The notes under the pieces are model-generated. The model was not told the DNA's origin, made no database searches, and worked only from the letters and a program-made list of their open reading frames with translations. DNA of 35,413 bases, taken from the NCBI RefSeq assembly GCF_001418575.1, contig NZ_LIQR01000193.1:1-35413 (forward strand), in the 5' to 3' direction. The translations under genes were made by a program, and so were the position numbers. Position 1 is the stretch's first letter. Every line of letters begins with the position of its first letter. Source of the DNA: Peterkaempfera griseoplana. GTDB taxonomy: Bacteria; Actinomycetota; Actinomycetes; Streptomycetales; Streptomycetaceae. This document shows positions 15,115 to 35,413 of this stretch, one piece after another.

Positions 15115-17703
15115 GTGCCGCAACTCGTTCTTGAAATCAACGGACAGAACCGGACGTTGGATTCCGGTAGGACGTATTCGCTGGGACGTGACCCGCAGTC
15201 GGACGTGGTGTTCGACGACGCGCGCGTGTCCTGGCGGCACGCCACCATCTCCTTTGACGGCGGCAGTTGGCTGCTGGACGACCACGGCAGCACCAATGGC
15301 ACCTTCGTCAACGGCCAGCGCACCGCCCGCGCGGCGCTGACGCCGGGTACGGCGGTGCATCTGGGGAATGCGGAGAACGGCCCCCGGCTGGGCTTCGCGG
15401 CGGTGGCCGGGGCGGTCGGCGTCGGCACGGGGGGCGACCGGCACGACGTCAGCGGCGGCCGCCAGGCGGCGCAGACGCCGTGGGGCGCGCAGGGCGGTCA
15501 GATCGCCGGCGGCCCGATGGCGGCCGGGCCCGGCTGGCAGGCCGGCGGGCAGCAGGGCGCGGCAGCCTTCCAGGGGGGCGCATCGAGGCACGGGGGCGTA
15601 CCCGCGCAGGGCGGTGCGCCCGTCGGCTGGGAGCAGCAGCCCGCCGGTGGCGGGGTCACCCCGGTGTACGGGGACCGCAACCCGACCATGATCCGCAACC
15701 TGGCGCAGGGCATGCGCACCGTGCGGATCGGCCGCTCCCTCGACAACGACCTGGTCGTCTCCGACCTCGGCGTCTCCCGCCACCACGCCGAGCTGCGGCA
15801 GCTCGCGGACGGCCGGTACGAGATCGTCGACCTGGAGAGCCACAACGGCACCTATGTCAACGGCCTCCCCATCCAGCGGCACGTGATGGGCCCGGAGGAC
15901 CTGCTGGGTGTCGGCCACTCCGTGTTCCGGCTGGTCGGCGACCAGCTGGAGGAGTTCGTCGACACCGGCGCGGTCTCCTTCTCGGCCCGCCACCTCACCG
16001 TCGAGGTGCAGCACAAGGGCGCCAAAAAGGTCCTGCTCAACGACGTCTCCTTCGGCGTCCCGGAGAAGTCGCTGGTCGCGGTGATCGGCCCGTCCGGCTC
16101 CGGCAAGTCCACGCTGCTGCGCGCCCTGACCGGCTATCGCCCCGCGGACCGCGGCGACGTCCTCTACGACGGCCGCAACCTCTACAAGCAGTTCGCCGAA
16201 CTGCGCCAGCGCATTGGACTGGTCCCGCAGGACGACATCCTGCACAAGGAGCTCACCGTCCGCACCGCGCTCAAGTACGCGGCCCGGCTGCGCTTCCCCG
16301 GCGACACCCAGGAGGCCGAGCGCGCCGCCCGGATCGACGAGGTGCTCTACGAGCTGCGGCTGGACAAGCGCGCCGACAACCGCATCACCGCCCTGTCCGG
16401 CGGTCAGCGCAAGCGGGTCTCGGTGGCGCTGGAGCTGCTGACCAAGCCCTCGCTGATCTTCCTGGACGAGCCCACCTCGGGCCTGGACCCGGGGATGGAC
16501 CGCGAGGTCATGCAGATGCTGCGCGGGCTCGCCGACGACGGGCGCACCGTGCTGGTGGTCACCCACTCCGTGGCCGAACTGGCGCTCTGCGACCGGCTGC
16601 TGGTGATGGCGCCGGGCGGCTCGGTGGCGTACTTCGGGCCGCCGGACGAGGCGCTGCACTTCTTCGGCTACGAGACCTGGGCCGACGTCTTCCAGGCGTT
16701 CGAGAACTACCCGGACCACGACTGGGCGGGCCGCTACCGGGGCTCGGTGCACTACCAGATGTACTCGGCCGACGTGGAGGCCGTGGCCCCGCAGTCCGCA
16801 CCGATCCAGCAGCAGGTGTCGCGGCCGCAGAAGCAGCAGAGCTGGGGCTCGCAGCTGGCGACGCTGACCCGGCGCTATCTGTCGGTGATCGCCGCCGACC
16901 GGGGCTTCCTGGTGCTGTGCGGAGTGCTGCCCGTGGTGATGGGCGCCGTCAGCCTGGCCATCCCGGCGAAGTTCGGTCTGTTGCCGGCCAATCCACCCCT
17001 GAAGGACAACCAGCCCCAGTTCAATGTGGACGCCGCCACGGTGCTGCTGATCGTCGCGGTGGGCACGGTCTTCACCGGCGCCGCCAACTCGGTCCGCGAA
17101 CTGGTGAAGGAACGGGTGATCTACGAGCGCGAACGCGCCGTGGGGCTCTCCCGGTCCGCCTATGTGATGTCCAAGATCCTCACCCTGGGCGCGCTCACCG
17201 CCATCCAGTCCGTCGTGGTGGCCGTGATCGGCATCGGCACCCGCGACCTTCCCGCCGAGGGCCTGGTGATCAACGGCAACCCGCTGCTGGAGATGACCGT
17301 CGCGGTGGTCCTGCTGGGCCTGAGCAGCATGATGCTGGGCCTGGTGATCTCCTCCCTGGTGAAGACCTCGGAGAAGACCATGCCCCTGCTGGTCCTGGTG
17401 GCGATCGTCAATGTGGTCTTCTGCGGAGCCCTCTTCCCGCTCTTCGGCTCACCCGGCCTGGAGCAGCTGGCCTGGCTCACCCCGGCGCGCTGGGCGGTCG
17501 CCGCACTGGGCGCCTCGGTGAGCCTGGGCGCCATCTCGCCGCCGCCGGACGGCAAGGACGGCAAGACCGACCCGCTGTGGAACCACGACGTCTCCACCTG
17601 GTTCACCTCCGCGGGTGTGCTGGTGGTGCTCGGTCTGGTCTGCGCCTTCCTGGTGGTCAGGCTGCTGCGCCGGCACGAGCCCGAGGTCATGCGCAAGCGC
17701 TGA
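15115..17703 (+). CDS. Double-FHA ABC transporter (ATPase + ABC-2 permease), Rv1747-like
   Basis: An 862-aa half-transporter fused to two phosphothreonine-binding FHA domains. FHA1 spans about 1-95 (GRDPQSD, SWRHATI, GSTNGTFVNG). A Gly/Gln-rich linker runs at about 100-185. FHA2 spans about 185-280 (IGRSLDNDLVVSD, VSRHHAEL, SHNGTYVNG). The ABC ATPase has Walker A GPSGSGKST at 325-333, signature LSGGQRKR at 427-434 and Walker B LIFLDEPTSGLD from 447. An ABC-2 membrane domain with about six helices starts near 595. The layout equals M. tuberculosis Rv1747, an exporter linked to phosphatidylinositol mannosides and controlled by Ser/Thr kinases through its FHA domains. The substrate here is unknown. 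GTG 15115 is used because a stop lies just upstream in the leader. Confidence 0.92.
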   Translation: MPQLVLEINGQNRTLDSGRTYSLGRDPQSDVVFDDARVSWRHATISFDGGSWLLDDHGSTNGTFVNGQRTARAALTPGTAVHLGNAENGPRLGFAAVAGAVGVGTGGDRHDVSGGRQAAQTPWGAQGGQIAGGPMAAGPGWQAGGQQGAAAFQGGASRHGGVPAQGGAPVGWEQQPAGGGVTPVYGDRNPTMIRNLAQGMRTVRIGRSLDNDLVVSDLGVSRHHAELRQLADGRYEIVDLESHNGTYVNGLPIQRHVMGPEDLLGVGHSVFRLVGDQLEEFVDTGAVSFSARHLTVEVQHKGAKKVLLNDVSFGVPEKSLVAVIGPSGSGKSTLLRALTGYRPADRGDVLYDGRNLYKQFAELRQRIGLVPQDDILHKELTVRTALKYAARLRFPGDTQEAERAARIDEVLYELRLDKRADNRITALSGGQRKRVSVALELLTKPSLIFLDEPTSGLDPGMDREVMQMLRGLADDGRTVLVVTHSVAELALCDRLLVMAPGGSVAYFGPPDEALHFFGYETWADVFQAFENYPDHDWAGRYRGSVHYQMYSADVEAVAPQSAPIQQQVSRPQKQQSWGSQLATLTRRYLSVIAADRGFLVLCGVLPVVMGAVSLAIPAKFGLLPANPPLKDNQPQFNVDAATVLLIVAVGTVFTGAANSVRELVKERVIYERERAVGLSRSAYVMSKILTLGALTAIQSVVVAVIGIGTRDLPAEGLVINGNPLLEMTVAVVLLGLSSMMLGLVISSLVKTSEKTMPLLVLVAIVNVVFCGALFPLFGSPGLEQLAWLTPARWAVAALGASVSLGAISPPPDGKDGKTDPLWNHDVSTWFTSAGVLVVLGLVCAFLVVRLLRRHEPEVMRKR

Positions 17704-23945: not shown

Positions 23946-24236
23946 TCAGCGGCCGACCACCGACCTGCCCCCGTCCCGCCGCTCGGGCTTGAGCTCCACC
24001 TGGATGCGGTGCGTGGTGTCCCGGCCCGTCGAGCCGCCCAGCTCCGCGGTCACCACGCCGATCCGCAGCCCGGCCCGGCCGTTGCCGGTCAGGTGCACCT
24101 GCACCGCGAACTCCAGGCTGACCTTCTCCACGGCGAACAGCAGATCGTGCCCGTCGCCGTCCAGCCGCGCCTCCTCCAGCTCGCCGCGCACCTGCCGGAT
24201 CACCTCCGCCAGCCCCACGAAGTCCGCGTCCGTCAT
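23946..24236 (-). CDS. Trypco2 (trypsin-co-occurring domain 2) protein
   Basis: A 96-residue protein, MTDADFVGLAEVIRQVRGEL then a hydrophilic turn, LLFAVEKVSLEFAVQVHL and a short beta-rich end. I recognise this as Trypco2, a small domain reported with trypsin-like proteases in predicted NTP-dependent conflict systems. No enzymatic residues are apparent; it probably binds a partner as an adaptor. The ATG at 24236 gives the standard start and has a G-rich GGGGGTGGG upstream; a GTG at 24248 adds 4 residues. It is divergent from the protease gene 81 bases away, exactly the co-occurrence the name describes. Function is inferred from this association only. Confidence 0.85.
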   Translation of the reverse strand: MTDADFVGLAEVIRQVRGELEEARLDGDGHDLLFAVEKVSLEFAVQVHLTGNGRAGLRIGVVTAELGGSTGRDTTHRIQVELKPERRDGGRSVVGR

Positions 24237-24275
24237 CGCCGTGCCCACCCCCGGTCGAAAATCCGATCGTGCACC

Positions 24276-24289
24276 ACCCTACGGAGGGT
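24276..24289. promoter_or_regulatory. Dyad ACCCT-ACGG-AGGGT between Trypco2 and protease genes
   Basis: Five-base arms (24276-24280, 24285-24289) in the 80-base divergent gap, 28 bases before the protease ATG. TATGCT (24303-24308) eight bases before that ATG is a possible -10 box. A regulator bound at the dyad could control both directions. Confidence 0.35.
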
Positions 24290-24316
24290 ACCGAGTCGTG
24301 CGTATGCTGTCGTGTC

Positions 24317-26026
24317 ATGGGGGACGGAAACAGACGCGCCGTCACATTCACAGCCCAGGAGGGGAGTTGGCGGGTACGCATCCTGGATGAGCGCAAGGCG
24401 GTGCTGGGCGCCGGCGTCCTGCTGGGCCGCGGCACCGTACTGACCTGCGCCCATGTCGTACCGCCCGACAGCCCCGTGCTGGTGGACCGGGTGGGCGCAC
24501 CCGGCCGGCCGGTGCGCGCCCGGGTGATCGACGGCTGCTGGATCCCGGAGGAGACCGACCAGTACGACGACCCCGGCGGGGACGTGGCTCTGCTCGCCCT
24601 GGACACCCCCCAGCCGCCCGGATGCGGCGCCGTGCTGCACCGGGTGGTGCCCACCATCGGCCGGGCCGTCAGCATGTACGGCCATCCGCGGCGGTTCGAC
24701 GGAGGAGTGCTGTTCCGCGCCGAGATCGCCGGCCGCGTCGGCCGCGACGGGCGGGTGCAGATGTTCCCCCGCACCCCGCAGGAGGTGGTCCGGCCCGGTT
24801 TCAGCGGCGCGGGGGTCACCGACAACGAGACCGGCCGGGTGATCGGCATCGTGGTCAACCGCTACCGCGGCAGCGACGGGCTGTGCCTGTCGTACATGAT
24901 CCCCACCGAGACCGTGCTGCGTCATCTGCCCCGGGTACGCACCTGGGCGCACGGCCCCTCCGCGGTGGACGCGGCCCTGGTCCGCTCCGGCGACCAGGAG
25001 ACCGCCGACTCCTCCTTCGCCGAACGGCTGGCCCACTGGCTGGACGGCGGCGGCCCGGCCGTGCGGATCAGCACGGTACGGCCCGGCGACGAGGACCGCA
25101 CCCGCGCGCTGCACCGCGCGATCATGCACGCCGACCGGGAACTGGCCGGCCGGGGCGGGGTCCGCCGCCCGGCCGCCGGCTCCGCCGCGGTACCCGCCGT
25201 GGGCAGCCTCGACCTGGCCGTGGACGCGGCACGGCGCAGCGTCCCCTCCATCGCCGCGCAGCTCGAGGAGCGCCTCGGCCTGGCGGCCGCCGCCGGACCC
25301 GAGGACCACGGCGCGGCCCCCACCCGCGTCCTGGACCGCATCCGCGCCGCCGAGGTGCCGCTCACCGTGGTCGTGGACGGCGTGGACGACGCCCCCGACC
25401 CACCGGCCCTCCTCGAACTGCTCGGGACGCTCGCCGAGCGCAACTGCCGACTGCTGCTGATCCTCCACGGCACCGGCTCCCCCGAGGTGAACCGCGCCGT
25501 GCTGGAACTCGCCGCCCGGCCGCGGCTGGCCCGCCTCTCCGCGCTCCTGGACGACATCACCGGCCGCGCCCAGCAGCAGCTGGCGGACCGCTGCGCCTGG
25601 GTCGACGCCGACATAGGAGAGGCCACCCGGGCGCTCACCCGGGCCCACGCCCTGCGCAGCCACCTCGACGCGCTGCGCGGCACCCGCCCGGGCGGCGAAC
25701 CGCTCCCACCGCCGTCCCCGCCCGAACTGGACGCCATGGAACGCACCGCCGAGCGGGCCCTGGCCAGGGTCGAGGAGGCCATCGGGCGGCTCGACCGGCA
25801 CATCGCCCGCTGCGAGGTGCTGCGCGGCAGGCTCCGCCCGTACCAGGCGATGCTCGCCGAACGCGGCGCCGCCGAGCAGCCCGCCGTGGAGTCCCTCTAC
25901 CGCCGGGCCCGTGAGCTGCTGTGGCACCTGCCCTGCGATCCGGTGCAGGCGGAGGAGGCGGTCGACCGGTACACCGAGGCGGTACGGAGCTGGATCGGCG
26001 CCGCCCCGGGGGAGGAGACGCCATGA
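24317..26026 (+). CDS. Trypsin-like protease fused to a STAND-like domain lacking the P-loop
   Basis: 569 aa, no signal peptide, so probably cytosolic. The protease domain spans about 18-205 with an intact triad: H46 (VLTCAHVV), D89 (GGDVALL) and S163 (GFSGAGV). Residues about 230-450 look like a STAND NTPase: LTVVVDGVDDA (349-359) matches a Walker B followed by helices and LLLILHGTGS. The place of Walker A (about 245-260, GGPAVRISTVRPGDEDRTRA) has no GxxxxGK[ST]. This is probably an inactive STAND (iSTAND-like) sensor or scaffold. A coiled-coil segment (470-505) and a helical end follow. ATGA overlap joins it to the kinase gene. An earlier in-frame GTG at 24269 is less likely. Confidence 0.83.
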   Translation: MGDGNRRAVTFTAQEGSWRVRILDERKAVLGAGVLLGRGTVLTCAHVVPPDSPVLVDRVGAPGRPVRARVIDGCWIPEETDQYDDPGGDVALLALDTPQPPGCGAVLHRVVPTIGRAVSMYGHPRRFDGGVLFRAEIAGRVGRDGRVQMFPRTPQEVVRPGFSGAGVTDNETGRVIGIVVNRYRGSDGLCLSYMIPTETVLRHLPRVRTWAHGPSAVDAALVRSGDQETADSSFAERLAHWLDGGGPAVRISTVRPGDEDRTRALHRAIMHADRELAGRGGVRRPAAGSAAVPAVGSLDLAVDAARRSVPSIAAQLEERLGLAAAAGPEDHGAAPTRVLDRIRAAEVPLTVVVDGVDDAPDPPALLELLGTLAERNCRLLLILHGTGSPEVNRAVLELAARPRLARLSALLDDITGRAQQQLADRCAWVDADIGEATRALTRAHALRSHLDALRGTRPGGEPLPPPSPPELDAMERTAERALARVEEAIGRLDRHIARCEVLRGRLRPYQAMLAERGAAEQPAVESLYRRARELLWHLPCDPVQAEEAVDRYTEAVRSWIGAAPGEETP

Positions 26027-28356
26027 GCAGACCCTGCGGCCGGGACGGCTGCGCGGGGGTCGTCACCGGCAGCGGCTACTGCGGCACCTGCGGACGGGCC
26101 CCCGCTCCGGACCAGCCCGCAGCCCGCCCGCCGACGGCACTCCAGCCCCCGCCGCGGCCGCTGCGGCTCTCCACCCTGACCTCCTCCCAGGGGACGGGCT
26201 CCTCCGAGGGGACGGGCCTGCCCCCGCTGCCGGTGGTGGAACTGCCCGACCCGTCCGTCCTGGTGATCAGCGACCCCGGCCCGCCGCCCGGCGGCCGCCA
26301 GTGCGGCAAGGACGGCTGCACCTGGCCGGTCGGAGTCGGCTACAAGGGCCGGCCCGCCGCCAAGCGGGGCTTCTGCGGCCGCTGCGGCCACCCGTACGAC
26401 TTCTCTCCGCGGCTGCGCCCCGGAGACGTCCTGGACGACAAGTACCGGGTGCTGGGCCCGCTGGCGCACGGCGGCCTCGGCTGGATCTACCTCGCCCGCG
26501 ACACCGTGCTCGACGACCGCCTGGTCGCGCTCAAGGGCGTGATCAACGTCAATGACGCCGCCGCCCGGCGGGCGGCCGAGGAGGAACGCCGCCACCTGGT
26601 GGCGCTGGACCACCCCGACATCGTCCGGATCCACAGCTTCGTCACCCACCGCCCGCCCGGCGAGGTGCCCACCGACTACATCGTCATGGAGTTCGTCGGA
26701 GGCCGGACGCTGCGGCAGCTCGCCGACCCCGCCGAACAGCGCTCGGCACTCGGCGGCCGGCTGCAACTGGAGCACGTCGTCGGCTACGGCTGCCGCATCC
26801 TCGACGCGCTGGAGCACCTGCACCGCCGCGGGCTGCTCTACTGCGACATGAAGCCCGAGAACGTGATCCACCACGGCGACCGGGTGAAGGTGATCGACCT
26901 CGGAGCGGTACGCCGGGCCGACGACCGGGACTCCGCACTGGTCACCACCCCCGGCTACGCCCCCGAGCCGCCGGAGGGCACCGCGGGAGGCTGGACCGCC
27001 GCCTCCGACCTGCACACCGTCGGAGTCACCCTGCGCGACCTCTCACGCGCGGCCGAGCCGCGCGGCGAGGAGGCCGGCGCCGTCTCCTTCCGGCGCGTCG
27101 TGCAGCGAGCCACCCAGGCCGACCCACGGGCCCGCTTCGGCTCCGCGGCCCAGATGGCGCTGCAGCTCCGCGGTGTACTGCGCGAACTGCGGCCGCCGGG
27201 CGCCGGTCAGGACCACCCGGAGCCCTCCGCCCTCTTCGCCCCCGGCGCGGCCCTGCTGGACGCCGGCCTCGGCGCCGTCCCGCCGCTCAGCGACTGGACC
27301 GGCCGCCACCTCCAGGACCCGCCGCCGGACACCGGCCGCCCCACCGCGGCGCAGGTCGCGGCCGGACTGCCGGTACCCCACCCGGACCCGGACGACCCGG
27401 CGGCCGCCCAGGTCACCGCCCTCGCCCAGGCGGACGACCCACGGCGGCTGGCCGAGCAGCTCGCCGCCCGGCGGCACACCCCGGAGAGCGCCCTGCAGCT
27501 CTGCCGGGTCCATCTGGAACTGGGCGGCCTCCCGGAGGCACAGCACTGGCTCGGCACCGCCGCCGCCCTGGTCGACGCCCAGGACCCGCAGCCCGGGGAC
27601 ACCACCGGGCAGCAGGCCGCCTCCGCGTACGACTGGCGGATCGCCTGGCACCGCGCGCTGCTCGCGCTGGCCGGCGCCGATCCGTCCCCCGGGCGGTCCG
27701 CCGAGGACGCCGAGGCCGATCTGTCGGCCGCCGAGCGGCACTTCGACTCCGTCTACACCGCGCTTCCCGGCGAGACCGCACCCAAGCTCGCCCTCGGTTA
27801 CTGCGCCGAGCGGCGGGGCGACGTCAAGAGCGCCGCCCGCCACTACGACGCGGTCTGGCAGCGCGACCGCTCGCAGGGCAGCCCCGCCTTCGGCCTGGCC
27901 CGTATCCACCTCGGCGCCGGGGACCGCGGCCGGGCCCTGGACGTGCTGGACGCGGTACCCAGGTCCTCCCTGCACCACGACGCCGCCCGCATCGCCGCGC
28001 TGCGGATCATCGCCGGACGCGGCGCGGGCGGCCCGCAGAGCGGAGCCGACCTCGGCGAGGCGGCCCGCCGGCTGCGGGCCCTCTACCTGGACGGCGGCTC
28101 CCCGACCGGCCACGCCAGGGAGCGCCTCACCGCCGAGATCCGCGAGACGGCCCTGGAGTGGATCGGCGACCGGCCGCCGCCGGACCCCGGGCCGGGCAGC
28201 GAGGAGCTGTTCGGCGCCGCGCCGCTCACCGCGGACGGGCTGCGGCGGCTGACCGAGCGCTCCTACCGGGAGCTGGCCGCGCAGGCCGCCACCGAGGCCG
28301 AGCACGGGGCCCTGGTGGACCGGGCCAACGCGGTGCGGCCGATGACCCTGACCTGA
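26023..28356 (+). CDS. PknG-type Ser/Thr kinase with two N-terminal zinc ribbons and TPR-like C-terminus
   Basis: 777 aa, soluble. Two Cys4 clusters precede the kinase: C5/C10/C20/C23 and C94/C99/C118/C121, the second in the place of PknG's rubredoxin. The kinase spans about 134-400: P-loop LAHGGLGWIYLA, K171 (VALK), EEERRHL, IVMEFVGG, catalytic loop YCDMKPENV (D275, K277, N280; no HRD arginine) and DLG (D292). These match M. tuberculosis PknG, as does the overall length (750 aa there). Residues about 450-777 are helical, TPR-like. PknG controls central nitrogen/glutamate metabolism through FHA protein GarA. Start ATG overlaps the protease stop (ATGA). Well supported as PknG-like; its substrate here is unknown. 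Confidence 0.92.
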   Translation: MSRPCGRDGCAGVVTGSGYCGTCGRAPAPDQPAARPPTALQPPPRPLRLSTLTSSQGTGSSEGTGLPPLPVVELPDPSVLVISDPGPPPGGRQCGKDGCTWPVGVGYKGRPAAKRGFCGRCGHPYDFSPRLRPGDVLDDKYRVLGPLAHGGLGWIYLARDTVLDDRLVALKGVINVNDAAARRAAEEERRHLVALDHPDIVRIHSFVTHRPPGEVPTDYIVMEFVGGRTLRQLADPAEQRSALGGRLQLEHVVGYGCRILDALEHLHRRGLLYCDMKPENVIHHGDRVKVIDLGAVRRADDRDSALVTTPGYAPEPPEGTAGGWTAASDLHTVGVTLRDLSRAAEPRGEEAGAVSFRRVVQRATQADPRARFGSAAQMALQLRGVLRELRPPGAGQDHPEPSALFAPGAALLDAGLGAVPPLSDWTGRHLQDPPPDTGRPTAAQVAAGLPVPHPDPDDPAAAQVTALAQADDPRRLAEQLAARRHTPESALQLCRVHLELGGLPEAQHWLGTAAALVDAQDPQPGDTTGQQAASAYDWRIAWHRALLALAGADPSPGRSAEDAEADLSAAERHFDSVYTALPGETAPKLALGYCAERRGDVKSAARHYDAVWQRDRSQGSPAFGLARIHLGAGDRGRALDVLDAVPRSSLHHDAARIAALRIIAGRGAGGPQSGADLGEAARRLRALYLDGGSPTGHARERLTAEIRETALEWIGDRPPPDPGPGSEELFGAAPLTADGLRRLTERSYRELAAQAATEAEHGALVDRANAVRPMTLT

Positions 28357-28380
28357 CGGACAGCCGACGGGGAGCAGCAG

Positions 28381-29817
28381 ATGAGCACACCGGCCGACCG
28401 GCCCGGCGTTGAACTGACCATCCATCAGGACGAGTACCACCAGGCCGGTCCCGGCCGCCGCGACATCCAGGCCGTGGTGTCGGTCACCGTCACCGGAGTG
28501 CGGCCGGTCCCCGCCTCCGCCGCCGAGGTGGTGGTCATCGACTGCTCCGAGTCGATGAGCTGGCCGCAGTCCAAGATCGAGGCGGCCCGCCGGGCCACCG
28601 CGGCCGCGGTCGGCCTGCTGCGCGATGGAACCCGCTTCGCCGTCGTCGAGGGCACCGACAGCGCCCGGGTGGTCTACCCCCGTTCGCCCTCCCTCGCGGT
28701 GGCCGGCGCCGGAACCCGCGCCGAGGCCGTCGCCGCCGTCCGGCGACTGCGCCCCGGCGGCGGCACCGCCATGGGCACCTGGCTCACCCTCGCCCGCGAA
28801 CTGCTCGAACAGGCCCCCGGCGGGATCCGCCATGTCCTGCTGCTCACCGACGGCAGGAACGAGACCGAGCCGCCCGGCCGGCTGCAGCAGGTCCTCGCCG
28901 CCTGCGAGGGCCGCTTCACCTGCGACGCCAGGGGCATCGGCGACGGCTGGGACGCACGGGAGCTGGGCGGCATCGCCACCCGGCTGCACGGCACCGCCGC
29001 GGTGGTGCTCCAGGACGCCGACCTGGAGGCGGAGTTCACCGGCATGATGCGCGCCTCCCTGAGCCGGGCGCTGCCGGACCTCAGGCTGCGCCTCACCCCC
29101 CTGCCCGGGGTCACCCTCCGCTACCTCAGACAGGTCCACCCCACCGAGGTGGACCTCACCGCCGCCGGCCGCCCGGCCGGCGAACGGGCCGTGGAGTTCC
29201 CCACCGACCCCTGGGCCAGCGAGACCCGCCACTACCAGCTGTGCCTCACCGCCGACCCGGACGGCCGGCCCCGGGACGAGCGGCTGATGCTCGCCGATGT
29301 TCAGCTGACGTCGGGGGACACCGCAGGACCGGAGCTGCCGCCCCCGGCACCCGTCCTGGTCCGCTGGACCGACGGGGCCCAGCTCTCCGCGCCCAACCCG
29401 GTCAGCGTGCACTTCTCCACCCACGGCAGGCTCGGCGAGGCCGTCGCCGACGCGTACCACGCCCACCGGGAGGGCGACCGGGCCCGGGCCGAGGCCGTAC
29501 TGGACCGGGTCCTGCGCCTCGCCCACCAGCTGGGCGACCGTTCGACCCTGGACGTCCTGGCGGACCTCCTGGTGTCCACGGAACCCGACGACGGACCCGC
29601 CCGCCTGCGGGAACGCTTCGACCGCCGGCACTTCGACCGGCTGCTGCTGAGCAGCCGCCACAGCGCCCCGGTTCCCGACGGCGCGCCCCTTGCCGAAGCC
29701 CACTCCCAGCCGCCCGGCCCCGACCTGACCTGCCCCGTCCCGGACTGCGGGACGGTGTCACCGCCCGGATCGGCCTTCTGCTGGGCCTGCGGCACCGCCC
29801 TGCGGGAGGCCCGATGA
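28381..29817 (+). CDS. von Willebrand A (MIDAS) protein with C-terminal zinc ribbon
   Basis: 478 aa, no signal peptide, predicted cytosolic. The vWA domain is at about 45-220 with a complete metal-ion-dependent adhesion site: DxSxS at D54-S56-S58 (VIDCSESM), T129 (GGGTAMG) and D157 (LLTDGRN). A beta-rich middle (about 225-345) and a short helical segment (AEAVLDRVLRLAHQLGD) follow. The last 28 residues form a Cys4 ribbon, C451/C456/C467/C470, spaced almost as in the kinase's first ribbon. vWA domains bind partners through metal, so this is a likely adaptor between kinase, protease and membrane parts. GGGGAG precedes the ATG; the stop overlaps the next start (ATGA). Confidence 0.88.
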   Translation: MSTPADRPGVELTIHQDEYHQAGPGRRDIQAVVSVTVTGVRPVPASAAEVVVIDCSESMSWPQSKIEAARRATAAAVGLLRDGTRFAVVEGTDSARVVYPRSPSLAVAGAGTRAEAVAAVRRLRPGGGTAMGTWLTLARELLEQAPGGIRHVLLLTDGRNETEPPGRLQQVLAACEGRFTCDARGIGDGWDARELGGIATRLHGTAAVVLQDADLEAEFTGMMRASLSRALPDLRLRLTPLPGVTLRYLRQVHPTEVDLTAAGRPAGERAVEFPTDPWASETRHYQLCLTADPDGRPRDERLMLADVQLTSGDTAGPELPPPAPVLVRWTDGAQLSAPNPVSVHFSTHGRLGEAVADAYHAHREGDRARAEAVLDRVLRLAHQLGDRSTLDVLADLLVSTEPDDGPARLRERFDRRHFDRLLLSSRHSAPVPDGAPLAEAHSQPPGPDLTCPVPDCGTVSPPGSAFCWACGTALREAR

Positions 29818-30794
29818 GCACCACCCGGCGCTCCCTGGTCCGCAGGCGGTCCGTCCTGCTCTGTCTCACCGCCGCGGCCGTGCTGCTGCAGCTCGCCGCC
29901 TACACGGCGGTGCACGGCGACTCCCGGCCGCTGCGCGACGGCACCGCTCCGGCGATCCTCGACGTCGCCGCCGCGGAGTCCTCCCTGTACCTGGCCGACC
30001 GCGCCGCCGCCGAGAGCCTGCGCGACTCCGGCACCGCCTCCCTGGTCGGCACCGGCGAGGAGTACCGCACCCAGATCTCGGCGGCCGGGGAGAACCTGGC
30101 CCGGGCCGCCGAGGGCAACGTCGCCGGGGAACCGGGACTCCAGACCCTGCACACGGTGAACGGCCTGGTCTCCACCTACACCACCTGGATCGAGAGCGCC
30201 GACCAGGCCCAGGGCGACGACCGGCTGCGCACCGCCTATCTGGCGTACGCGGACAGCACACTGCGGCGGCAGGACAGCGGCATCCTCGCCCGGCTGGACA
30301 CCCTGCAGACCGAGCAGCGCCGGGTGCTCGCCCGCGAGGTGTCCTTCGGGCCGCTCGAACGGCTCTGGTGGGCGGCCACCGCCGCCGCCTTCGCCGCTCT
30401 GGGCTGGGTACTGGTCACCACCCAGCTCCACCTGCGGCGCCGCTTCCGGCGACGGTTGAACCCCTGGCTGCTGGCCGCCACCGCGCTGGTGCTGGTGCCG
30501 GTGCCGCTGGCCGTCTTCACGGCCCAGGTCCACGGCGCCATGCAGCGCTCGGCGCGCAGCCTGGAGCGGGTGGTCGCCGACGAGCGGCCGACGGGGAGCG
30601 CCGCCGCGGACGACTCCGACCTGCTCGGCCGCCGGATCAGGGACACCACGCAGGAGGTGCGGACCTACCTGGGCGGCGCCGCCTGGCGGGCGGACCTCAC
30701 CGTGGGGATACCCCTGGCCGGGGTACTGATCGGCGCCCTGGTCGTGGCGGGGATGCAGCCCCGCATCGCCGAGTACCGGTTCGGCCGCCGATGA
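29814..30794 (+). CDS. Four-helix membrane protein with outer domain (GlnX-like in layout)
   Basis: 326 aa. Membrane helices are at about 13-33, 185-205, 216-236 and 293-313. Arg-rich ends (RRSLVRRR, LRRRFRRRL) place the N-terminus and the 206-215 loop in the cytoplasm by the positive-inside rule. That leaves a helical outer domain of about 150 residues (34-184) and a second outer loop (237-292). The first resembles the four-helix sensor domains of chemoreceptors and histidine kinases. Only short cytoplasmic parts remain, so signalling must go through partners. Its position between PknG-like and solute-binding genes parallels mycobacterial GlnX, but homology is not shown. ATGA overlaps join it to both neighbours. 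Confidence 0.8.
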   Translation: MSTTRRSLVRRRSVLLCLTAAAVLLQLAAYTAVHGDSRPLRDGTAPAILDVAAAESSLYLADRAAAESLRDSGTASLVGTGEEYRTQISAAGENLARAAEGNVAGEPGLQTLHTVNGLVSTYTTWIESADQAQGDDRLRTAYLAYADSTLRRQDSGILARLDTLQTEQRRVLAREVSFGPLERLWWAATAAAFAALGWVLVTTQLHLRRRFRRRLNPWLLAATALVLVPVPLAVFTAQVHGAMQRSARSLERVVADERPTGSAAADDSDLLGRRIRDTTQEVRTYLGGAAWRADLTVGIPLAGVLIGALVVAGMQPRIAEYRFGRR

Positions 30795-30850
30795 GGACCG
30801 GGCCGATGAGGACCGGGCCGATGACCACGGGACCGGCGACGACGGGGCCG
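30791..30850 (+). repeat. Four tandem 15-bp units at the start of the binding-protein gene
   Basis: Units at 30791, 30806, 30821 and 30836. The first two are identical (ATGAGGACCGGGCCG); the third and fourth are variants. They encode MRTGP-MRTGP-MTTGP-ATTGP. Because three units begin with ATG, starts at 30791, 30806 or 30821 are all possible. Copy number changes would alter only the cytoplasmic tail length. Confidence 0.88.
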
Positions 30851-32176
30851 GCCGACCCGGCCGGGACGACGGTCCGGACCAGGACGGTGACCGCCGCGGT
30901 GGTCGGCCTCTGCCTGGTGCTCACCGCCGCCCTGGGCATCACCCTCTACTCCCGGACGGCGGGCGGCAGCGTCAGCCTGCTCGCTTCCTGGACCGGCGAG
31001 GAGGAACGGGTCTTCCGCACCGTCCTGGACGCCTTCACCGCCGACACCGGCATCCGCGTCGACTACCAGGGCAGCAGCGCCCAGCGGGAGATCCTGCTCG
31101 GCGAGGTGCAGGCCGGCACCGAACCCGACATCGCGGTCCTCCCCAGCCCGGGCGAACTCGCCGACTACGCACTGGCCGGGCACCTCAGACCGCTGGGCTC
31201 CGTGCTGGGCACGGAGGAGCAGCAGTACAGCGCCACCTGGATCCCCCGGCTCACCGTCGGCGGCCGCCAGGACGTCTACTGGGTACCGGTGAAGGCCGAT
31301 GTGAAGAGCCTCGTCTGGTACGACACCCGGCGCTACCCCGGCCGGCCGCGCGACCGGCTCGCACCGCTGGTCACCCGAGGCGGCCAGTGGTGCGTGGGCA
31401 TGGGCAGCGACGCCACCTCGGGGTGGCCCGGCACCGACTGGATCGAGGACATCCTGCTCCAGCAGGCGGGCCGGGACACCTACCAGGCCTGGGCCACCGG
31501 CACCGGCAGCTGGACCTCCTCCGCCGTCCGCCGGGCCTGGCAGACCTGGCACGACCTGCTGACCGGGTCCCGTACGGCCGCCGTCCCGGAGGCGGTGCTC
31601 ACCACCGACTACCGGGACGCCGGCAGGGGCATGTTCGCCGCCCGGCCGACCTGCGCCCTGGAACACCAGGCCTCCTTCATCCGCGCCGGGTACCCCAGGA
31701 CGGGCGGCCACCCCGGGGTCCCACGGGGCGACTTCCTGCCGTCCTCCGAGCTGATCCCGCACGCTGACCGCGCCGCAGGCGCCCGCGAGGTCTCCGGGGA
31801 CCTCGCGGGGATGTTCCGCGACACCCCGCAGGCCCGGCGGCTGATGACCTATCTGGCCTCCGCCGCGGCCCAGCAGGCCTGGGCCGAGAACACCGCGGCC
31901 GACCAGATCCGCCCGCTGTCCGTCAACACCCGGGTGCCCTCGTCCGTCTACCGCACCGACCCGGTGACCACACATGTCGCCCAGGCCCTGCGCGCCCCCG
32001 GGACCACCTGCTACGACGCCTCCGACGCCATGCCCCCGGCGATGCGCGACGCCTTCCAGCGCGGAGTGCTGGAGTACCTCGCCGGCTCCCGGCCGCTGGA
32101 CGACCTGCTCGCCCGGCTGGACCACATCCGCACCTCGGTGCCCCGCACCCAGTGGCTCCCGTCGGTGTGCAGCTGA
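30791..32176 (+). CDS. Membrane-anchored extracellular solute-binding protein
   Basis: 461 aa. After a repetitive start and Arg residues, one membrane helix (about 33-53, VTAAVVGLCLVLTAALGITLYS) anchors the protein. No proper lipobox is present: C41 is preceded by leucine inside the helix. The outer part is a family-1 type binding protein (sugar-type): VSLLASWTGEEERVFRTVLDAF, ILLGEVQAGTEPDIAVLPSPGELADYA, YWVPVKADVKSLVWYD, GTDWIEDILLQQAG, LMTYLASAAAQQAW. No ABC permease or ATPase is near, so it probably senses a ligand for the membrane protein and PknG-like kinase, as GlnH does in mycobacteria. GlnH itself is an amino-acid type protein, so the ligand may differ. Start overlaps the upstream stop (ATGA). 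Confidence 0.87.
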   Translation: MRTGPMRTGPMTTGPATTGPADPAGTTVRTRTVTAAVVGLCLVLTAALGITLYSRTAGGSVSLLASWTGEEERVFRTVLDAFTADTGIRVDYQGSSAQREILLGEVQAGTEPDIAVLPSPGELADYALAGHLRPLGSVLGTEEQQYSATWIPRLTVGGRQDVYWVPVKADVKSLVWYDTRRYPGRPRDRLAPLVTRGGQWCVGMGSDATSGWPGTDWIEDILLQQAGRDTYQAWATGTGSWTSSAVRRAWQTWHDLLTGSRTAAVPEAVLTTDYRDAGRGMFAARPTCALEHQASFIRAGYPRTGGHPGVPRGDFLPSSELIPHADRAAGAREVSGDLAGMFRDTPQARRLMTYLASAAAQQAWAENTAADQIRPLSVNTRVPSSVYRTDPVTTHVAQALRAPGTTCYDASDAMPPAMRDAFQRGVLEYLAGSRPLDDLLARLDHIRTSVPRTQWLPSVCS

Positions 32177-32200: not shown

Positions 32201-33007
32201 TCAGTGCGGGCTGGCCTGGGGCCGCTCGTCCACCGCCGCGTTGTACGCCGCCACCTGGGCCCGCCGCGTGGTGCGCTCCAGGGGCCGCAGCACCTCGTTA
32301 CGGGCCGCCATCTCCGAGGCGCTCACCGCGGCCCCGTGCCCGCCCGAGGCGATCGTCAGCAGCGCCGAGATCCGCTGCGCGGACTCCAGCACCCGCACCG
32401 CCCGCGGCGGATACCCCGGTGCCAGCAGCTCCCGGTGGCCACGCCGCCGGTACGACTCCAGCGCCCGCAGCGCCTCCGGGCCCGCCCCGGCGACATCCAT
32501 CCGGGCCAGCAGCGCCGTCGCCTCCCGCAGGCCCTCGGCCAGCTCCCGCTCGGCCTCCCGTAGGGTCGGCACATCGGCCGGTGGCGCCTCCCGTACGGGT
32601 GAGCAGCGCCACAGCACCGTGACCGAGCGGTCCCCGGGCGGCCCGTACCACTCCACCTCGGGCACCAGGCCCAGCGCCGGGCCGCCGGCCGTCAGCGCCG
32701 CCTGTCCGGCCGCCATCGCCTGCTGGTTGAAGTCCGCCGGTCCGGTCAGGCCCAGGGGGTGGCCGGGCACCGGCAGCGCCAGGCGGAAGCCGGACACCCC
32801 CAGCGCGCGCAGCCGCCCCAGCGCCCAGGTGAGCGCATGGCGCTCCTCCGGCCCGTCGCCGGGCAGGCCCGCCACCCGGTGGGACTCGTCACGGCCGACC
32901 ACGGCGGCGGCGGCGTCGTCCGGCGGGGCATGGCCGCTCAGCAGGGCATTGCCCCAGGCGGTCAGCCGTCCGGCACGGGTCTCCGCATCCAGGTTCTCGT
33001 CACGCAC
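32201..33007 (-). CDS. Conserved protein of unknown function
   Basis: 268 aa, soluble, not recognised. Features: a start MRDENLDAETRAGRLTAWGNALLSG, a region ALGVSGFRLALPVPGHPLGLTGPADFNQQAMAAGQAAL, the segment VEWYGPPGDRSVTVLWR, and a long charged helical region (about 140-250) with possible coiled coil. No catalytic motif or membrane helix is evident. Codon use matches real genes of the window. It starts at GTG 33007 with TAGGCT six bases upstream (33019-33014) and no ribosome site, so the mRNA may be leaderless. It converges on the binding-protein gene with only 24 bases between and diverges from the ABC ATPase. It may be unrelated to the sensor operon. Confidence 0.75.
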   Translation of the reverse strand: MRDENLDAETRAGRLTAWGNALLSGHAPPDDAAAAVVGRDESHRVAGLPGDGPEERHALTWALGRLRALGVSGFRLALPVPGHPLGLTGPADFNQQAMAAGQAALTAGGPALGLVPEVEWYGPPGDRSVTVLWRCSPVREAPPADVPTLREAERELAEGLREATALLARMDVAGAGPEALRALESYRRRGHRELLAPGYPPRAVRVLESAQRISALLTIASGGHGAAVSASEMAARNEVLRPLERTTRRAQVAAYNAAVDERPQASPH

Positions 33008-33166: not shown

Positions 33167-33958
33167 ATGAGCGACGTTCTCGAGCTGGTGGACGTATCCG
33201 TGGTCCGCGACGGCCGCGCGCTGGTGGACCAGGTGTCCTGGTCGGTCGCCGAGGGCGAGCGCTGGGTCATCCTGGGCCCCAACGGAGCGGGCAAGACCAC
33301 TCTGCTGCAGATCGCCTCCAGCTACCTCTTCCCGACCAGCGGCACCGCCGCGCTCCTCGGTGAGAAGCTCGGCTCGGTCGACGTCTTCGAGCTGCGTCCC
33401 CGGATCGGCACCGCGGGCGCCTCCATGATCGACAAGCTGCCTCGCCGCCAGACCGTCCTGGACACCGTGCTCACCGCCGCCTACGGCATGACCGCCCACT
33501 GGCGCGAGCAGTACGACACCTCCGACGAGGCCCGCGCCCTCGCGCTGCTGGACCGGCTCGGCATGGGCCACTTCCGCGACCGCCGCTTCGGCACCCTCTC
33601 CGAGGGCGAGCGCAAGCGGACCCTGATCGCCCGCGCCCTGATGACCGACCCCGAGCTGCTGCTGCTGGACGAGCCCGCGGCCGGCCTCGACCTGGGCGGC
33701 CGCGAGGACCTGGTCCGGCGCCTCGGCGCCCTCGCCCAGGACCCTTACGCGCCGTCCATGGTGATGGTCACCCACCATGTCGAGGAGATCGCGCCGGGCT
33801 TCACGCACGTGCTGATGATCCGTCAGGGGCGGGTGCTGGCCGCCGGTCCCATCGACACCGAGCTCAACGCCCGCAACCTCTCGCTCTGCTTCGGGCTGCC
33901 GCTCACCCTGGAGCGCCGCGGCGACCGCTGGACCGCCCAGGGTCTGCCGCTCACCTGA
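33167..33958 (+). CDS. ABC transporter ATP-binding protein (stand-alone)
   Basis: A 263-aa ABC ATPase with all motifs: Walker A LGPNGAGKTTLL, Q-loop region after about residue 75, signature LSEGERKR, Walker B LLLLDEPAAGLD and H-loop VTHHVEEI. The LSEGE variant and the HHVEEIAPGFTHVL segment resemble the ModF/YlmA-type group of ATPases, whose partners and substrates are poorly known. No permease gene is adjacent. GGGGAAGG (33152-33159) 7 bases before the ATG decides the start. A clear hairpin ends the unit before nfeD. It may act outside transport, which is a guess based only on the missing permease. Confidence 0.9.
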   Translation: MSDVLELVDVSVVRDGRALVDQVSWSVAEGERWVILGPNGAGKTTLLQIASSYLFPTSGTAALLGEKLGSVDVFELRPRIGTAGASMIDKLPRRQTVLDTVLTAAYGMTAHWREQYDTSDEARALALLDRLGMGHFRDRRFGTLSEGERKRTLIARALMTDPELLLLDEPAAGLDLGGREDLVRRLGALAQDPYAPSMVMVTHHVEEIAPGFTHVLMIRQGRVLAAGPIDTELNARNLSLCFGLPLTLERRGDRWTAQGLPLT

Positions 33959-33981
33959 CCTCGCGTACCGTCCCGCGCACC

Positions 33982-34011
33982 CCGGCCGCCCGCCGCACGA
34001 CGGGCGGCCGG
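33982..34011 (+). terminator. Terminator after the ABC ATPase gene
   Basis: CCGGCCGCCCG (33982-33992), 8-nt loop, exact complement (34001-34011), then ATTCTCCCC. It lies 24 bases past the stop codon. Confidence 0.75.
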
Positions 34012-34038
34012 ATTCTCCCCATCGACCTGCGGAAACCG

Positions 34039-34067
34039 TTCCACGCCCGGCAGTTGCTCCCTAGGAT
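34039..34067 (+). promoter_or_regulatory. Candidate promoter for nfeD (leaderless)
   Basis: TTCCAC (34039-34044), 17-bp spacer, TAGGAT (34062-34067). The -10 box ends six bases before the GTG at 34074, so the mRNA may begin at that codon. The box also argues against the GTG at 34071. Confidence 0.5.
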
Positions 34068-34073
34068 GGAGTG

Positions 34074-34496
34074 GTGGACAGCTGGGTGTGGTGGCTTGTC
34101 GTCGCCGTGGGTCTGGGCATTCCGCTGGTGATCACCGCGATGCCGGAGTTCGGCATGTTCGCGGTGGGAGCCCTCGCCGCCGCGGGCGCCGCGGGGCTCG
34201 GCACCGGCGTGGTGGCCCAGTTCATCGTTTTTGTCGCGGTCTCCGTGGCCCTGCTGCTGGTGGTGCGGCCCATCGCCTACCGCCACCTCAGGCAGGGACC
34301 CCCGGTGCGGATGGGCATCGAGGCGCTCAAGGGCGCCAGCGCCGTCGTCCAGGAGCGGGTCGACGACCAGGGCGGCCGGATCAAGCTCAACGGCGAGATC
34401 TGGTCGGCCCGCGCGCTCAACCCCGGCACCGTCTACGAACCCGGCCAGCAGGTGGATGTCATAGAGATCGAGGGCGCGACCGCCCTCGTCGTGTAG
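34074..34496 (+). CDS. NfeD-family membrane protein
   Basis: 140 aa. Two or three membrane segments (WVWWLVVAVGLGIPLVITAM; FGMFAVGALAAAGAAGLG; FIVFVAVSVALLLVVRPI) are followed by a soluble beta-barrel of the OB type at about 75-140: ALKGASAVVQERVD, GGRIKLNGEIWSARAL, GQQVDVIEIEGATALVV. This is the short NfeD form. NfeD proteins act with SPFH partners in membrane organisation or quality control, and the next gene encodes just such a partner, 7 bases on. GTG 34074 is preferred over 34071 because the -10 box sits six bases before it. Confidence 0.9.
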   Translation: MDSWVWWLVVAVGLGIPLVITAMPEFGMFAVGALAAAGAAGLGTGVVAQFIVFVAVSVALLLVVRPIAYRHLRQGPPVRMGIEALKGASAVVQERVDDQGGRIKLNGEIWSARALNPGTVYEPGQQVDVIEIEGATALVV

Positions 34497-34503
34497 GGAG
34501 AGC

Positions 34504-35413
34504 GTGTTGGAACCCGTCCTCATCGTCCTGGTCATCCTGGTGGTGCTGGCCTTCATCGCACTGATCAAGACGATCCAGGTCATCCCGCAGGCCAGTGCCG
34601 CGATCGTCGAGCGCTTCGGCCGCTACACCCGCACGCTCAACGCAGGGCTCAACATCGTGGTGCCGTTCATCGACACCATCCGCAACCGCATCGACCTGCG
34701 CGAGCAGGTCGTCCCGTTCCCGCCGCAGCCGGTGATCACCCAGGACAACCTGGTGGTCAACATCGACACCGTCATCTACTACCAGGTCACCGACCCGCGC
34801 GCCGCCACCTACGAGGTCGCCAGCTACATCCAGGCGATCGAGCAGCTCACCGTCACCACGCTGCGCAACATCATCGGCGGCATGGACCTGGAGCGCACGC
34901 TGACCTCCCGCGAGGAGATCAACGCGGCGCTGCGCGGCGTCCTGGACGAGGCCACCGGCAAGTGGGGCATCCGCGTCAACCGCGTCGAGCTCAAGGCCAT
35001 CGAGCCGCCCACCTCCATCCAGGACTCGATGGAGAAGCAGATGCGCGCCGACCGCGACAAGCGCGCCGCCATCCTCACCGCCGAGGGCACCAAGCAGGCC
35101 GCCATCCTCACCGCCGAGGCCCAGGCCGCGGTGCTGCGCGCCGACGGTGAGGCCGCGGCCATCCGCACCGTCTTCGAGTCCATCCACGCGGGCAACCCCG
35201 ACCAGAAGCTGCTGGCCTACCAGTACCTGCAGACCCTTCCCAAACTCGCCGAGGGCGACTCCAACAAGCTCTGGATCATCCCCAGCGAGGTCGGCGAGGC
35301 CCTCAAGGGACTCGGCGGCGCCTTCGCGGGCTTCGCCGGCGGCCCCACCGGCAACGGCCACCAGCCGGCCGGCCCCACCCCGCCCGCCGACCGCGACAAG
35401 GGCGCCGCCCGCC
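34504..35413 (+). CDS. SPFH/band-7 (stomatin-like) protein, 3' end beyond window
   Basis: At least 303 residues, open at the window edge. One N-terminal membrane helix (PVLIVLVILVVLAFIALI) is followed by the SPFH domain (IPQASAAIVERFGRYTRTLNAGLN, DLREQVVPFPPQPVITQDN, DTVIYYQVTDPRAATY, IIGGMDLERTLTSREEIN), an Ala/Glu-rich coiled coil at about 180-220 and a Gly/Pro-rich tail. Stomatin-type proteins form large oligomers that organise membrane domains and proteases. With nfeD it forms the usual pair. GTG 34504 and TTG 34507 both follow GGGAG (34496-34500) closely; the TTG has the better spacing. The first stop codon is not in the window. Confidence 0.93.
   Translation, partial: MLEPVLIVLVILVVLAFIALIKTIQVIPQASAAIVERFGRYTRTLNAGLNIVVPFIDTIRNRIDLREQVVPFPPQPVITQDNLVVNIDTVIYYQVTDPRAATYEVASYIQAIEQLTVTTLRNIIGGMDLERTLTSREEINAALRGVLDEATGKWGIRVNRVELKAIEPPTSIQDSMEKQMRADRDKRAAILTAEGTKQAAILTAEAQAAVLRADGEAAAIRTVFESIHAGNPDQKLLAYQYLQTLPKLAEGDSNKLWIIPSEVGEALKGLGGAFAGFAGGPTGNGHQPAGPTPPADRDKGAAR
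35065..35119 (+). repeat. 22-bp direct repeat in the SPFH coiled coil
   Basis: The segment at 35065-35086 recurs exactly at 35098-35119 (offset 33 bp). It encodes AAILTAE twice, 11 residues apart, within the coiled coil of the SPFH protein. Probably a short internal duplication that keeps helix phase. Confidence 0.75.

Follow-up and report, generated by a model that had tools for sequence, protein, structure and literature searches.

A conserved operon related to the PknG locus joins genes for a sugar-type binding protein and a trypsin-like protease in Peterkaempfera griseoplana

Gene content and conservation of the operon

The window analyzed here, a 35,413-nucleotide stretch of Peterkaempfera griseoplana DNA, contains a gene that we call A, which is divergent from a five-gene operon, B-C-D-E-F. 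The original prediction placed a divergent Trypco2 gene beside an operon for a protease, a PknG-like kinase, a vWA protein, a membrane protein, and an anchored solute-binding protein (SBP), and we found all six genes. Gene A (23946..24236, minus strand) encodes Trypco2 (PF19631, 87.3 bits), starts with the ATG at 24236 (not 24248), and lies 80 bp from B; it is the sole Trypco2 match in a profile search of the genome assembly. The remaining genes are on the plus strand. B (24317..26026) encodes a trypsin-like protease (Pfam Trypsin_2, 42.7 bits) with a STAND-like part and a helical domain, and C (26023..28356) encodes a PknG-type kinase (Pfam PknG_rubred, Pkinase, and PknG_TPR [191 bits]). The Pfam-identified vWA protein D (28381..29817) has a MIDAS motif (DxSxS..T..D) and a C-terminal zinc ribbon. 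E (29814..30794) encodes a GlnX-like membrane protein (NF058618, 91 bits, 7e-26), and F (30791..32176) encodes a membrane-anchored binding protein (Pfam SBP_bac_1, 39 bits).

Among the 119 distinct loci in which a cluster-type F occurs, the succession B to F is retained in 73, which represent eight named genera; these counts are conditional on F, and one underlying set comprised the best 80 matches. Each of the nine genes flanking the operon in the window recurred in 0 to 4 of the other 72 full loci. This combination of conserved order and nonconserved flanks indicates a real unit, more than chance, and the view that these genes belong together rather than usually lying apart thus survives. 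ATGA overlaps were seen at B/C, D/E, and E/F in the window and not at C/D, as the prediction had said for three of the four junctions. Across the 73 full loci, a 4-nucleotide overlap occurs at B/C in 56, at C/D in 9, at D/E in 70, and at E/F in 63. In the remaining 10, E and F are fused, a state reached on the kinase tree by about three changes, so that all 73 have E and F either overlapped or fused. In L069 and L105, B and C form a single reading frame, which corresponds to two changes on that tree. B to F are one conserved, tightly packed unit.

The full operon was present in 24 of 121 genomes of the family, with one further copy cut by a contig start, and in one of three genomes within the genus of the window. 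In 17 E-F pairs for which 6 kb or more of upstream sequence was available, there was no cluster kinase, indicating that E and F are able to stand without C. Ten neighbors from five E-F-only loci comprised an RND transporter, GH18, MMPL, a histidine kinase, methionine synthase, TetR, another SBP, two SDRs, and one matchless gene, and we found no theme common to them. A Pfam search with the gene downstream of F in the window (dn1, 32201 to 33007) gave zero matches. We rejected a mobile element as the carrier of the operon: the vWA query recovered one plasmid record, of 11.85 Mb from Nonomuraea, and the E query recovered zero phage matches. A literature search did not find a description of this B-C-D-E-F/Trypco gene set.

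Kinship with the PknG locus

The canonical Streptomycetaceae PknG locus, glnX-glnH-B'-pknG-PP2C-vWA-FHA (B' is our label for its coiled-coil gene), was annotated in four stretches (L039, L041, L043, and L052) and is also present in the genome of the window. Judged by homology, the operon is a rewired paralog of this locus, to which it is largely homologous. The two share homologous PknG, vWA, GlnX, and tail domains and the order B'-PknG-vWA. The canonical locus, however, has GlnH (SBP_bac_3), PP2C, and FHA, and neither a protease nor Trypco was found there; in the operon, a sugar-type SBP replaces the amino acid SBP, PP2C and FHA are gone, and the helical domain has come to follow a protease and a STAND-like part. 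The tail of B is homologous to B' (profile scores of 56 to 65 bits in five distinct canonical stretches), and D is 41% identical to C572, the vWA protein encoded at the canonical pknG locus of this genome.

C contains an N-terminal zinc ribbon, a rubredoxin-like domain, a kinase domain, and PknG_TPR, the last three above Pfam cutoffs, and aligns with Mycobacterium tuberculosis PknG (PDB code 2pzi; E = 2.7e-91) over residues 63 to 774; it can thus be assigned as full-length PknG kin. Its six catalytic positions are kept in 69 to 72 of 72 alignment rows: the kinase Lys, Glu, Asp, and Asn are kept in all 71 readable rows of the 72, the DFG Asp in 72 of 72, and the catalytic-loop Lys is changed to Ser in two. 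A Ser/Thr-rich N-terminal segment of PknG kinases recruits the FHA substrate. The Ser/Thr fraction of this segment is 0.173 in the window, with a cluster median of 0.107 (0 to 0.213; 65 of 73 kinases parsable) and canonical values of 0.227 to 0.32 (n = 4), and threonine counts overlap (window, 6; cluster median, 4; canonical, 2 to 9).

The four transmembrane helices of E were assigned by visual inspection of its hydrophobic stretches and from the model. Its AlphaFold2 model (pLDDT 92.1 from 45 rows) predicts one full four-helix bundle (amino acids 37 to 176) and a helical hairpin in place of a second, whereas GlnX is characterized by two extracytoplasmic four-helix bundles; the GlnX paper places the docked SBP near the second. 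The score of E against the GlnX model NF058618 (91 bits) falls below the cutoff of 250 bits, as do those of two relatives (34 and 74 bits), and the canonical L043 gene scores 433; E is thus GlnX-like, not a member of the GlnX family by that cutoff. The best fold match to the bundle was LytS of the XylFII-LytS complex (PDB code 5xsj; Z = 16.9 over 119 residues, 1.7 Å), closely followed by McpS (15.5), PcaY (15.3), and a designed bundle (14.8); Foldseek alone gave zero matches at E ≤ 0.001. XylFII-LytS likewise pairs a sugar-type SBP with a four-helix sensor domain, but LytS is a histidine kinase, whereas the operon has a separate PknG-type Ser/Thr kinase.

F consists of SBP_bac_1 behind an N-terminal hydrophobic anchor (identified by eye), and the residues of its WC and SGWPxxDW motifs are invariant (73/73). 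In the PDB, its relatives bind sugars, AcbH and NagB2 among them. The original prediction likened the operon to the GlnH-GlnX-PknG pathway. This logic proved to be real homology for C (to 2pzi) and E (to the NF058618 model); for the binding protein, an anchored SBP beside a GlnX-like E was borne out, but F belongs to SBP_bac_1 and is no GlnH ortholog, the canonical gene being SBP_bac_3. The mycobacterial and Corynebacterium GlnH-GlnX-PknG system shares a PknG kinase with TPR, a GlnX family protein, and an anchored SBP in one operon, with the PknG rubredoxin domain absent in Corynebacterium (PMC6069109, PMC9769921, PMC8546545). Compared with that system, ours has SBP_bac_1 for SBP_bac_3, one full bundle for two, an added vWA and protease, no FHA gene, and a different gene order. 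Ser/Thr kinases linked or fused to SBPs also occur beyond PknG (Streptomyces griseus SGR_4432, Streptomyces coelicolor SCO1468, and MSMEG_1200), and an SBP is proposed there as the sensor of a Ser/Thr kinase in Streptomyces (PMC6069109).

The protease and its Trypco partners

An AlphaFold2 model of B (pLDDT 90.3 from 38 rows) predicts a trypsin-like domain (amino acids 19 to 212), a STAND-like α/β domain (amino acids 232 to 388), and a helical domain (amino acids 389 to 562). The triad H46, D89, and S163 is in place, and the model matches the HtrA/trypsin fold (Z = 21.3, 178 residues, 2.3 Å), the protease domain filling the fold lists for whole B. With this His-Asp-Ser triad and fold, B classifies as a trypsin/HtrA-type protease of predicted activity. 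The STAND-like part of the window protein reads VRPGDEDRTRAL at the Walker A position and has no P-loop, lacking this mark of STAND NTPases; a near-intact Walker A (VPPGSGKDRSL) is found in B of L062 and L174. Among 11 cluster B proteins, no Pfam STAND model matched the window protein at E ≤ 0.1 or the ten others at E ≤ 1, where one NPHP3_N match appeared at 0.34. B lacks the helical tail and is unfused to C in L062, L143, L159, L169, L174, and L175, and D has lost MIDAS residues in these six loci and in L164.

In 29 rows, three of them duplicates, a divergent Trypco2 gene precedes B at a distance of 67 to 174 bp. It accompanies 26 of the 73 full loci, and Trypco1 accompanies 13 others; no locus has both (0/73). 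Neither was found nearby in 34 full loci, 25 of which have an intact B triad, although Trypco1 could be missed where a stretch ends soon after F (335 bases in L123 and 1,123 in L086). Thus, the predicted co-occurrence of six genes in one order holds for B to F, and the six are better described as five plus a swappable partner. Trypco2 is an optional, not a constant, part of the operon.

The triad is intact in 63 of 70 scored rows, including all 39 with a Trypco partner. In the other seven it was lost while B was retained, which the kinase tree explains by about three changes. Loss was seen only where neither Trypco1 nor Trypco2 was found. This association gives a Fisher value of 0.002 when kinship is ignored; corrected for the tree, there are three independent pairs, two or three in the same direction and none opposite, which is too few for significance. 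Because B was kept after these losses, and with the kinase residues almost invariant, proteolysis cannot be the universal output that the original prediction allowed. The same data could suit a purely kinase-based nutrient sensor, with B a scaffold and proteolysis irrelevant. The GlnH-GlnX-PknG pathway, as presented in PMC6069109, operates without a protease, and the tail of B is kin to a nonprotease gene of the pknG locus. That reading is nonetheless unlikely, given that the triad persists in most rows and in every one with a Trypco partner, which would hardly be sensible absent a protease.

We consider it still less probable that the operon belongs to the trypsin/Trypco/vWA class of conflict or immunity systems (Kaur et al. 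2020), having captured PknG-GlnX-SBP as an outside sensor, with activation leading to proteolytic killing or effector release. Trypco1 or Trypco2 beside an intact trypsin, in a mutually exclusive manner, is what Kaur et al. 2020 state for their systems, and the patchy presence of the operon (24 of 121 family genomes, one of three in the genus) would fit. According to PMC7159879, the MoxR-vWA VMAP/iSTAND systems also have a vWA protein and a STAND domain that is inactive and may lie behind a trypsin, and the GAP1-N2 theme in actinobacteria links PP2C and a lone vWA with a kinase bearing a zinc ribbon. In those systems, however, MoxR is a partner; here it is absent nearby, the kinase and vWA are of the PknG-locus type, and an outside sensor is present. 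A PF07726 (MoxR) search gave matches in each of the 24 genomes with the full operon, the nearest about 120 kb away (G094, 29 bits), and none within 100 kb on the cluster contig (24/24), and the operon is thus not a MoxR-type conflict system. The predicted NTP-dependent conflict system also sits poorly with the missing P-loop, with triad loss while the operon and its almost invariant kinase were kept, and with the operon, in which we found no effector domain. In PADLOC, B weakly matched PDC-M35A (0.0033), and the others among the 25 of 31 matches listed were to kinase domains; we rejected filing the operon as a defense system.

A candidate transmembrane signaling module

A role for F in an ABC sugar importer whose genes lie elsewhere, with the operon merely tuning uptake, is very improbable. 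The kin of F are transporter SBPs: five of six F-only loci are ordinary ABC transporters with F before permeases, and a relative with 34% identity from the same genus precedes two permeases. But F is joined to E by overlap or fusion throughout, and of the 72 full loci whose flanks were called, only L147 has such permeases at a distance of up to about 5 kb, on the other strand, with none beside F in the window.

We favor, as the probable reading, a rewired PknG module in which an SBP docks on a four-helix sensor, the kinase is activated, and proteolysis is an accessory output. F would bind a carbohydrate-like ligand outside the cell and dock on the four-helix bundle of E, by analogy with XylFII on LytS; in some species the two form one chain. 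The docking change would travel along the long helices of E into the cytoplasm, where C may be held via its TPR domain, with D and B's helical tail serving as a scaffold. The substrate that C would then phosphorylate is probably different from the usual FHA protein. Where the triad is intact, as it is in the window, activation may also switch B, a putative cytosolic HtrA-like protease whose STAND part would be a regulatory remnant and which would be controlled by Trypco2 (Trypco1 elsewhere).

Several observations count against this mechanism. Direct contact between SBP and bundle, as in the receptor pairs XylFII-LytS and TorT-TorS, is for F and E an analogy from a fold match, alongside the gene fusions, and the second bundle of GlnX is here only a hairpin. 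There are also the E-F pairs lacking a cluster kinase, the tail-less B group, the MIDAS losses in D, and the 34 of 73 loci without Trypco.

More tentatively, the rewired PknG module could be a ligand-gated intracellular protease, in which an outside carbohydrate, via the SBP and GlnX-like receptor, leads the PknG-type kinase to release a Trypco2-held cytosolic trypsin, with Trypco1 and Trypco2 as interchangeable regulators. If true, sensing of nutrients (or wall fragments) would be joined to a proteolytic output of the conflict type within one transmembrane system.

The stimuli of bacterial Ser/Thr kinases are described as an outstanding question in an mBio paper (PMC6069109). The natural E-F and B-C fusions are ready constructs for contact tests, and the Trypco1/Trypco2 setting lets one operon be compared in versions with an intact protease, a dead protease, or no Trypco. 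The operon represents the PknG receptor design re-used with a different binding protein and a protease, and signals from outside the cell may in this way steer intracellular protein cutting.

Organization and conservation of the operon

The six genes of the original prediction were all present at 23946-32176, as assessed with Pfam and NCBIfam: a leftward Trypco2 gene (A; 23946-24236, - strand) and a rightward operon (24317 to 32176, + strand) encoding a trypsin-like protease (B), a PknG kinase with rubredoxin, kinase, and PknG_TPR domains (C), a vWA protein (D), a GlnX-like membrane protein (E; 91 bits, below the 250-bit cutoff), and an SBP_bac_1 binding protein (F). The ATGA overlaps noted at three of four junctions are those at B/C, D/E, and E/F. 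Alignment of C with Mycobacterium tuberculosis PknG spanned residues 63 to 774 (2.7e-91). Elsewhere in the window, one protein (15205-17703, +) joins two FHA domains to an ABC ATPase and an ABC-2 membrane part, and a row of genes at 33167-35413 (+) encodes ABC ATPase, NfeD-like, and Band_7/SPFH proteins.

To characterize conservation, D was used as a query against 121 genomes of the family (114 with a match), and F was used against 121 family genomes drawn likewise plus 296 of the class. An F profile search of contigs from named genomes added the best 80 of at least 441 confirmed matches. From 139 stretches read, including the window, we removed 6 duplicates and 14 lacking a cluster-type F above 300 bits, leaving 119 distinct loci; all counts are conditional on the bait (F, or D for the first loci). 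Gene content was B-C-D-E-F in 73 ("full loci"), E-F in 26 (9 with <6 kb of upstream sequence and possibly incomplete), C-E-F in 7, F in 6, C-D-E-F in 4, B-C-E-F in 2, and D-E-F in 1. The predicted co-occurrence of six genes held for B to F in the 73 full loci; Trypco2 adjoined B in only 26 of them. The full operon was found in at least 24 of 121 family genomes, with another interrupted by a contig start, and in the genera Streptomyces, Actinacidiphila, Amycolatopsis, Kutzneria, Streptoalloteichus, Solihabitans, Micromonospora, and Actinokineospora. Four-nucleotide overlaps recurred across the 73 full loci (B/C, 56; C/D, 9; D/E, 70; E/F, 63, with E and F fused in the remaining 10). Beyond the window, 72 full loci remain; each of nine genes flanking the operon in the window was found in at most 4 of them, and a protein without a Pfam match (32201-33007, -) was found in none. 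Collectively, the operon B to F is real and conserved.

E and F shared a single open frame in 13 of 119 loci (11 of 80 rows on the kinase tree, three changes). An apparent D-E fusion in L147, where the D match is split over frames, was taken as a sequencing error. Seventeen E-F loci (e.g., L060, L146, and L166) carry the GlnX-like/SBP_bac_1 pair with no cluster kinase nearby, and neighbors were unrelated in the five kinase-less E-F loci inspected.

The kinase Lys, Glu, Asp, and Asn were present in all 71 readable rows and the DFG Asp in 72 of 72; the catalytic-loop Lys was Ser in two Amycolatopsis rows. Checked residues of the F motifs WC and SGWPxxDW were unchanged in 73 of 73 rows. The D MIDAS was intact in 66 of 73, the seven altered rows being the L062/L174 group. 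The kinase and sensor are thus the fixed core of the operon, and protease activity, Trypco, and the MIDAS its adjustable parts.

The protease and its Trypco partners

In the predicted model of B (pLDDT 90.3), an HtrA/trypsin domain (Z 21.3 over 178 residues, 2.3 Å) is followed by an alpha/beta domain and then by a long tail of helices; the H46-D89-S163 triad is complete in the window. B had been described as protease-STAND. The protease half stood; judged by its sequence pattern and its layout in the model, the alpha/beta part resembles a STAND domain that lacks a P-loop, and no Pfam STAND model matched B. A near-intact P-loop (VPPGSGKDRSL) occurs in B of L062 and L174.

Besides the 26 full loci with Trypco2, 13 carry, behind F, a small gene that matched a Trypco1 profile (four checked in Pfam, 80 to 100 bits), and Trypco1 and Trypco2 never occurred together (0/73). 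The same mutual exclusion is stated for trypsin-bearing VMAP systems in the part of Kaur et al. consulted (PMC7159879). The triad was complete in all 39 rows with a Trypco partner and lost in 7 of 70 scored tree rows, none with Trypco1 or Trypco2 (Fisher 0.002, kinship ignored). This loss represents three changes on the tree and was nonsignificant by independent pairs; 24 partnerless rows that keep the triad count against a strict triad-Trypco link. Eight loci (L110, L112, L117, L119, L124, L129, L131, and L134), in which no Trypco was found, have behind F a gene on the opposite strand that weakly matches (27 to 34 bits) the protease portion of B.

B and C were fused in L069 and L105 (two changes), where the B match ends at profile residue 414 or 396, indicating that the helical tail is gone where the kinase directly follows. 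Unfused B in the L062/L174 group also lacks the tail, which weakens the idea that it docks the kinase.

Origin from the canonical pknG locus

The canonical pknG locus of Streptomycetaceae is ordered GlnX, GlnH (SBP_bac_3), B' (a 430-residue coiled-coil protein), PknG, PP2C with a zinc ribbon, vWA, and FHA. Pfam and NCBIfam models identified it in L043 and L052, and resemblance to L043 identified it in L039 and L041; the FHA gene of L039 is found ~2.4 kb beyond the others. The portions of the pknG literature consulted do not mention its PP2C, vWA, FHA, and coiled-coil genes. The window genome carries GlnX-GlnH-B' at the end of one contig (C42) and a partial PknG, PP2C, and vWA on a 3.9-kb contig (C572). 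Because the B tail matches B' (5e-12 in L041 by phmmer; 56 to 65 bits in five distinct canonical stretches by profile) and canonical genes exist in the same genome, the window operon is a paralogue of this locus: a protease was added in front of B', the PP2C and FHA genes are missing, and the sensor pair, with a binding protein of another kind, lies behind the vWA gene.

The relatives of F are sugar-binding proteins; one from the same genus (34% identity) lies just ahead of two BPD_transp_1 permeases, and such permeases adjoin F in 5 of 6 F-only loci, Chloroflexi MAGs included. Among the 72 full loci whose flanking genes were called, L147 alone had such permeases within ~5 kb, on the other strand. 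Cluster F therefore looks like a former transporter binding protein that is now a receptor part. F-like proteins beside ABC permeases in L157, L165, L173, and L153 lie on contigs labeled Chloroflexota/Chloroflexi MAGs and, in one case, Proteobacteria.

A putative receptor relay

The original prediction also drew on conflict systems. Each of the 24 full-operon genomes searched had MoxR (PF07726) matches, but on the cluster's contig no match lay closer to it than 100 kb (nearest, ~120 kb, 29 bits). On the evidence here, the operon is not a MoxR-type conflict system.

The operon probably acts in the manner of a PknG receptor; E and F fell short of the formal family criteria for GlnX and GlnH. The predicted model of E (pLDDT 92.1) shows long, uninterrupted helices and a single full bundle, which best matched LytS of the XylFII-LytS complex (Z 16.9, 119 residues, 1.7 Å), ahead of other bacterial four-helix sensors (Z ≤15.5) and a designed bundle (14.8). 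In XylFII-LytS, a sugar-binding protein sits on the four-helix sensor. For GlnX, the available part of its paper (PMC9769921) proposes that GlnH docks near a second bundle, whereas the E model predicts a mere hairpin there. In the proposed relay, F would dock onto E, E would signal to the TPR of kinase C, C would then phosphorylate a target, and B would act as a conditional protease.

The Ser/Thr-rich N-terminal segment of PknG is linked to recruitment of its FHA substrate. Its Ser/Thr fraction was 0.173 in the window kinase, with a cluster median of 0.107 (65 parsed), versus 0.227 to 0.32 in canonical kinases (n = 4); threonine counts overlap. This thinner segment only hints that the cluster kinase may have a different substrate.

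Other Ser/Thr kinases that are linked to a binding protein or fused with one are already known in Streptomyces and mycobacteria, as described in the part of PMC6069109 consulted, and the pairing concept is thus not new. No description of the gene set was found in the literature searched; what is new is this particular set.
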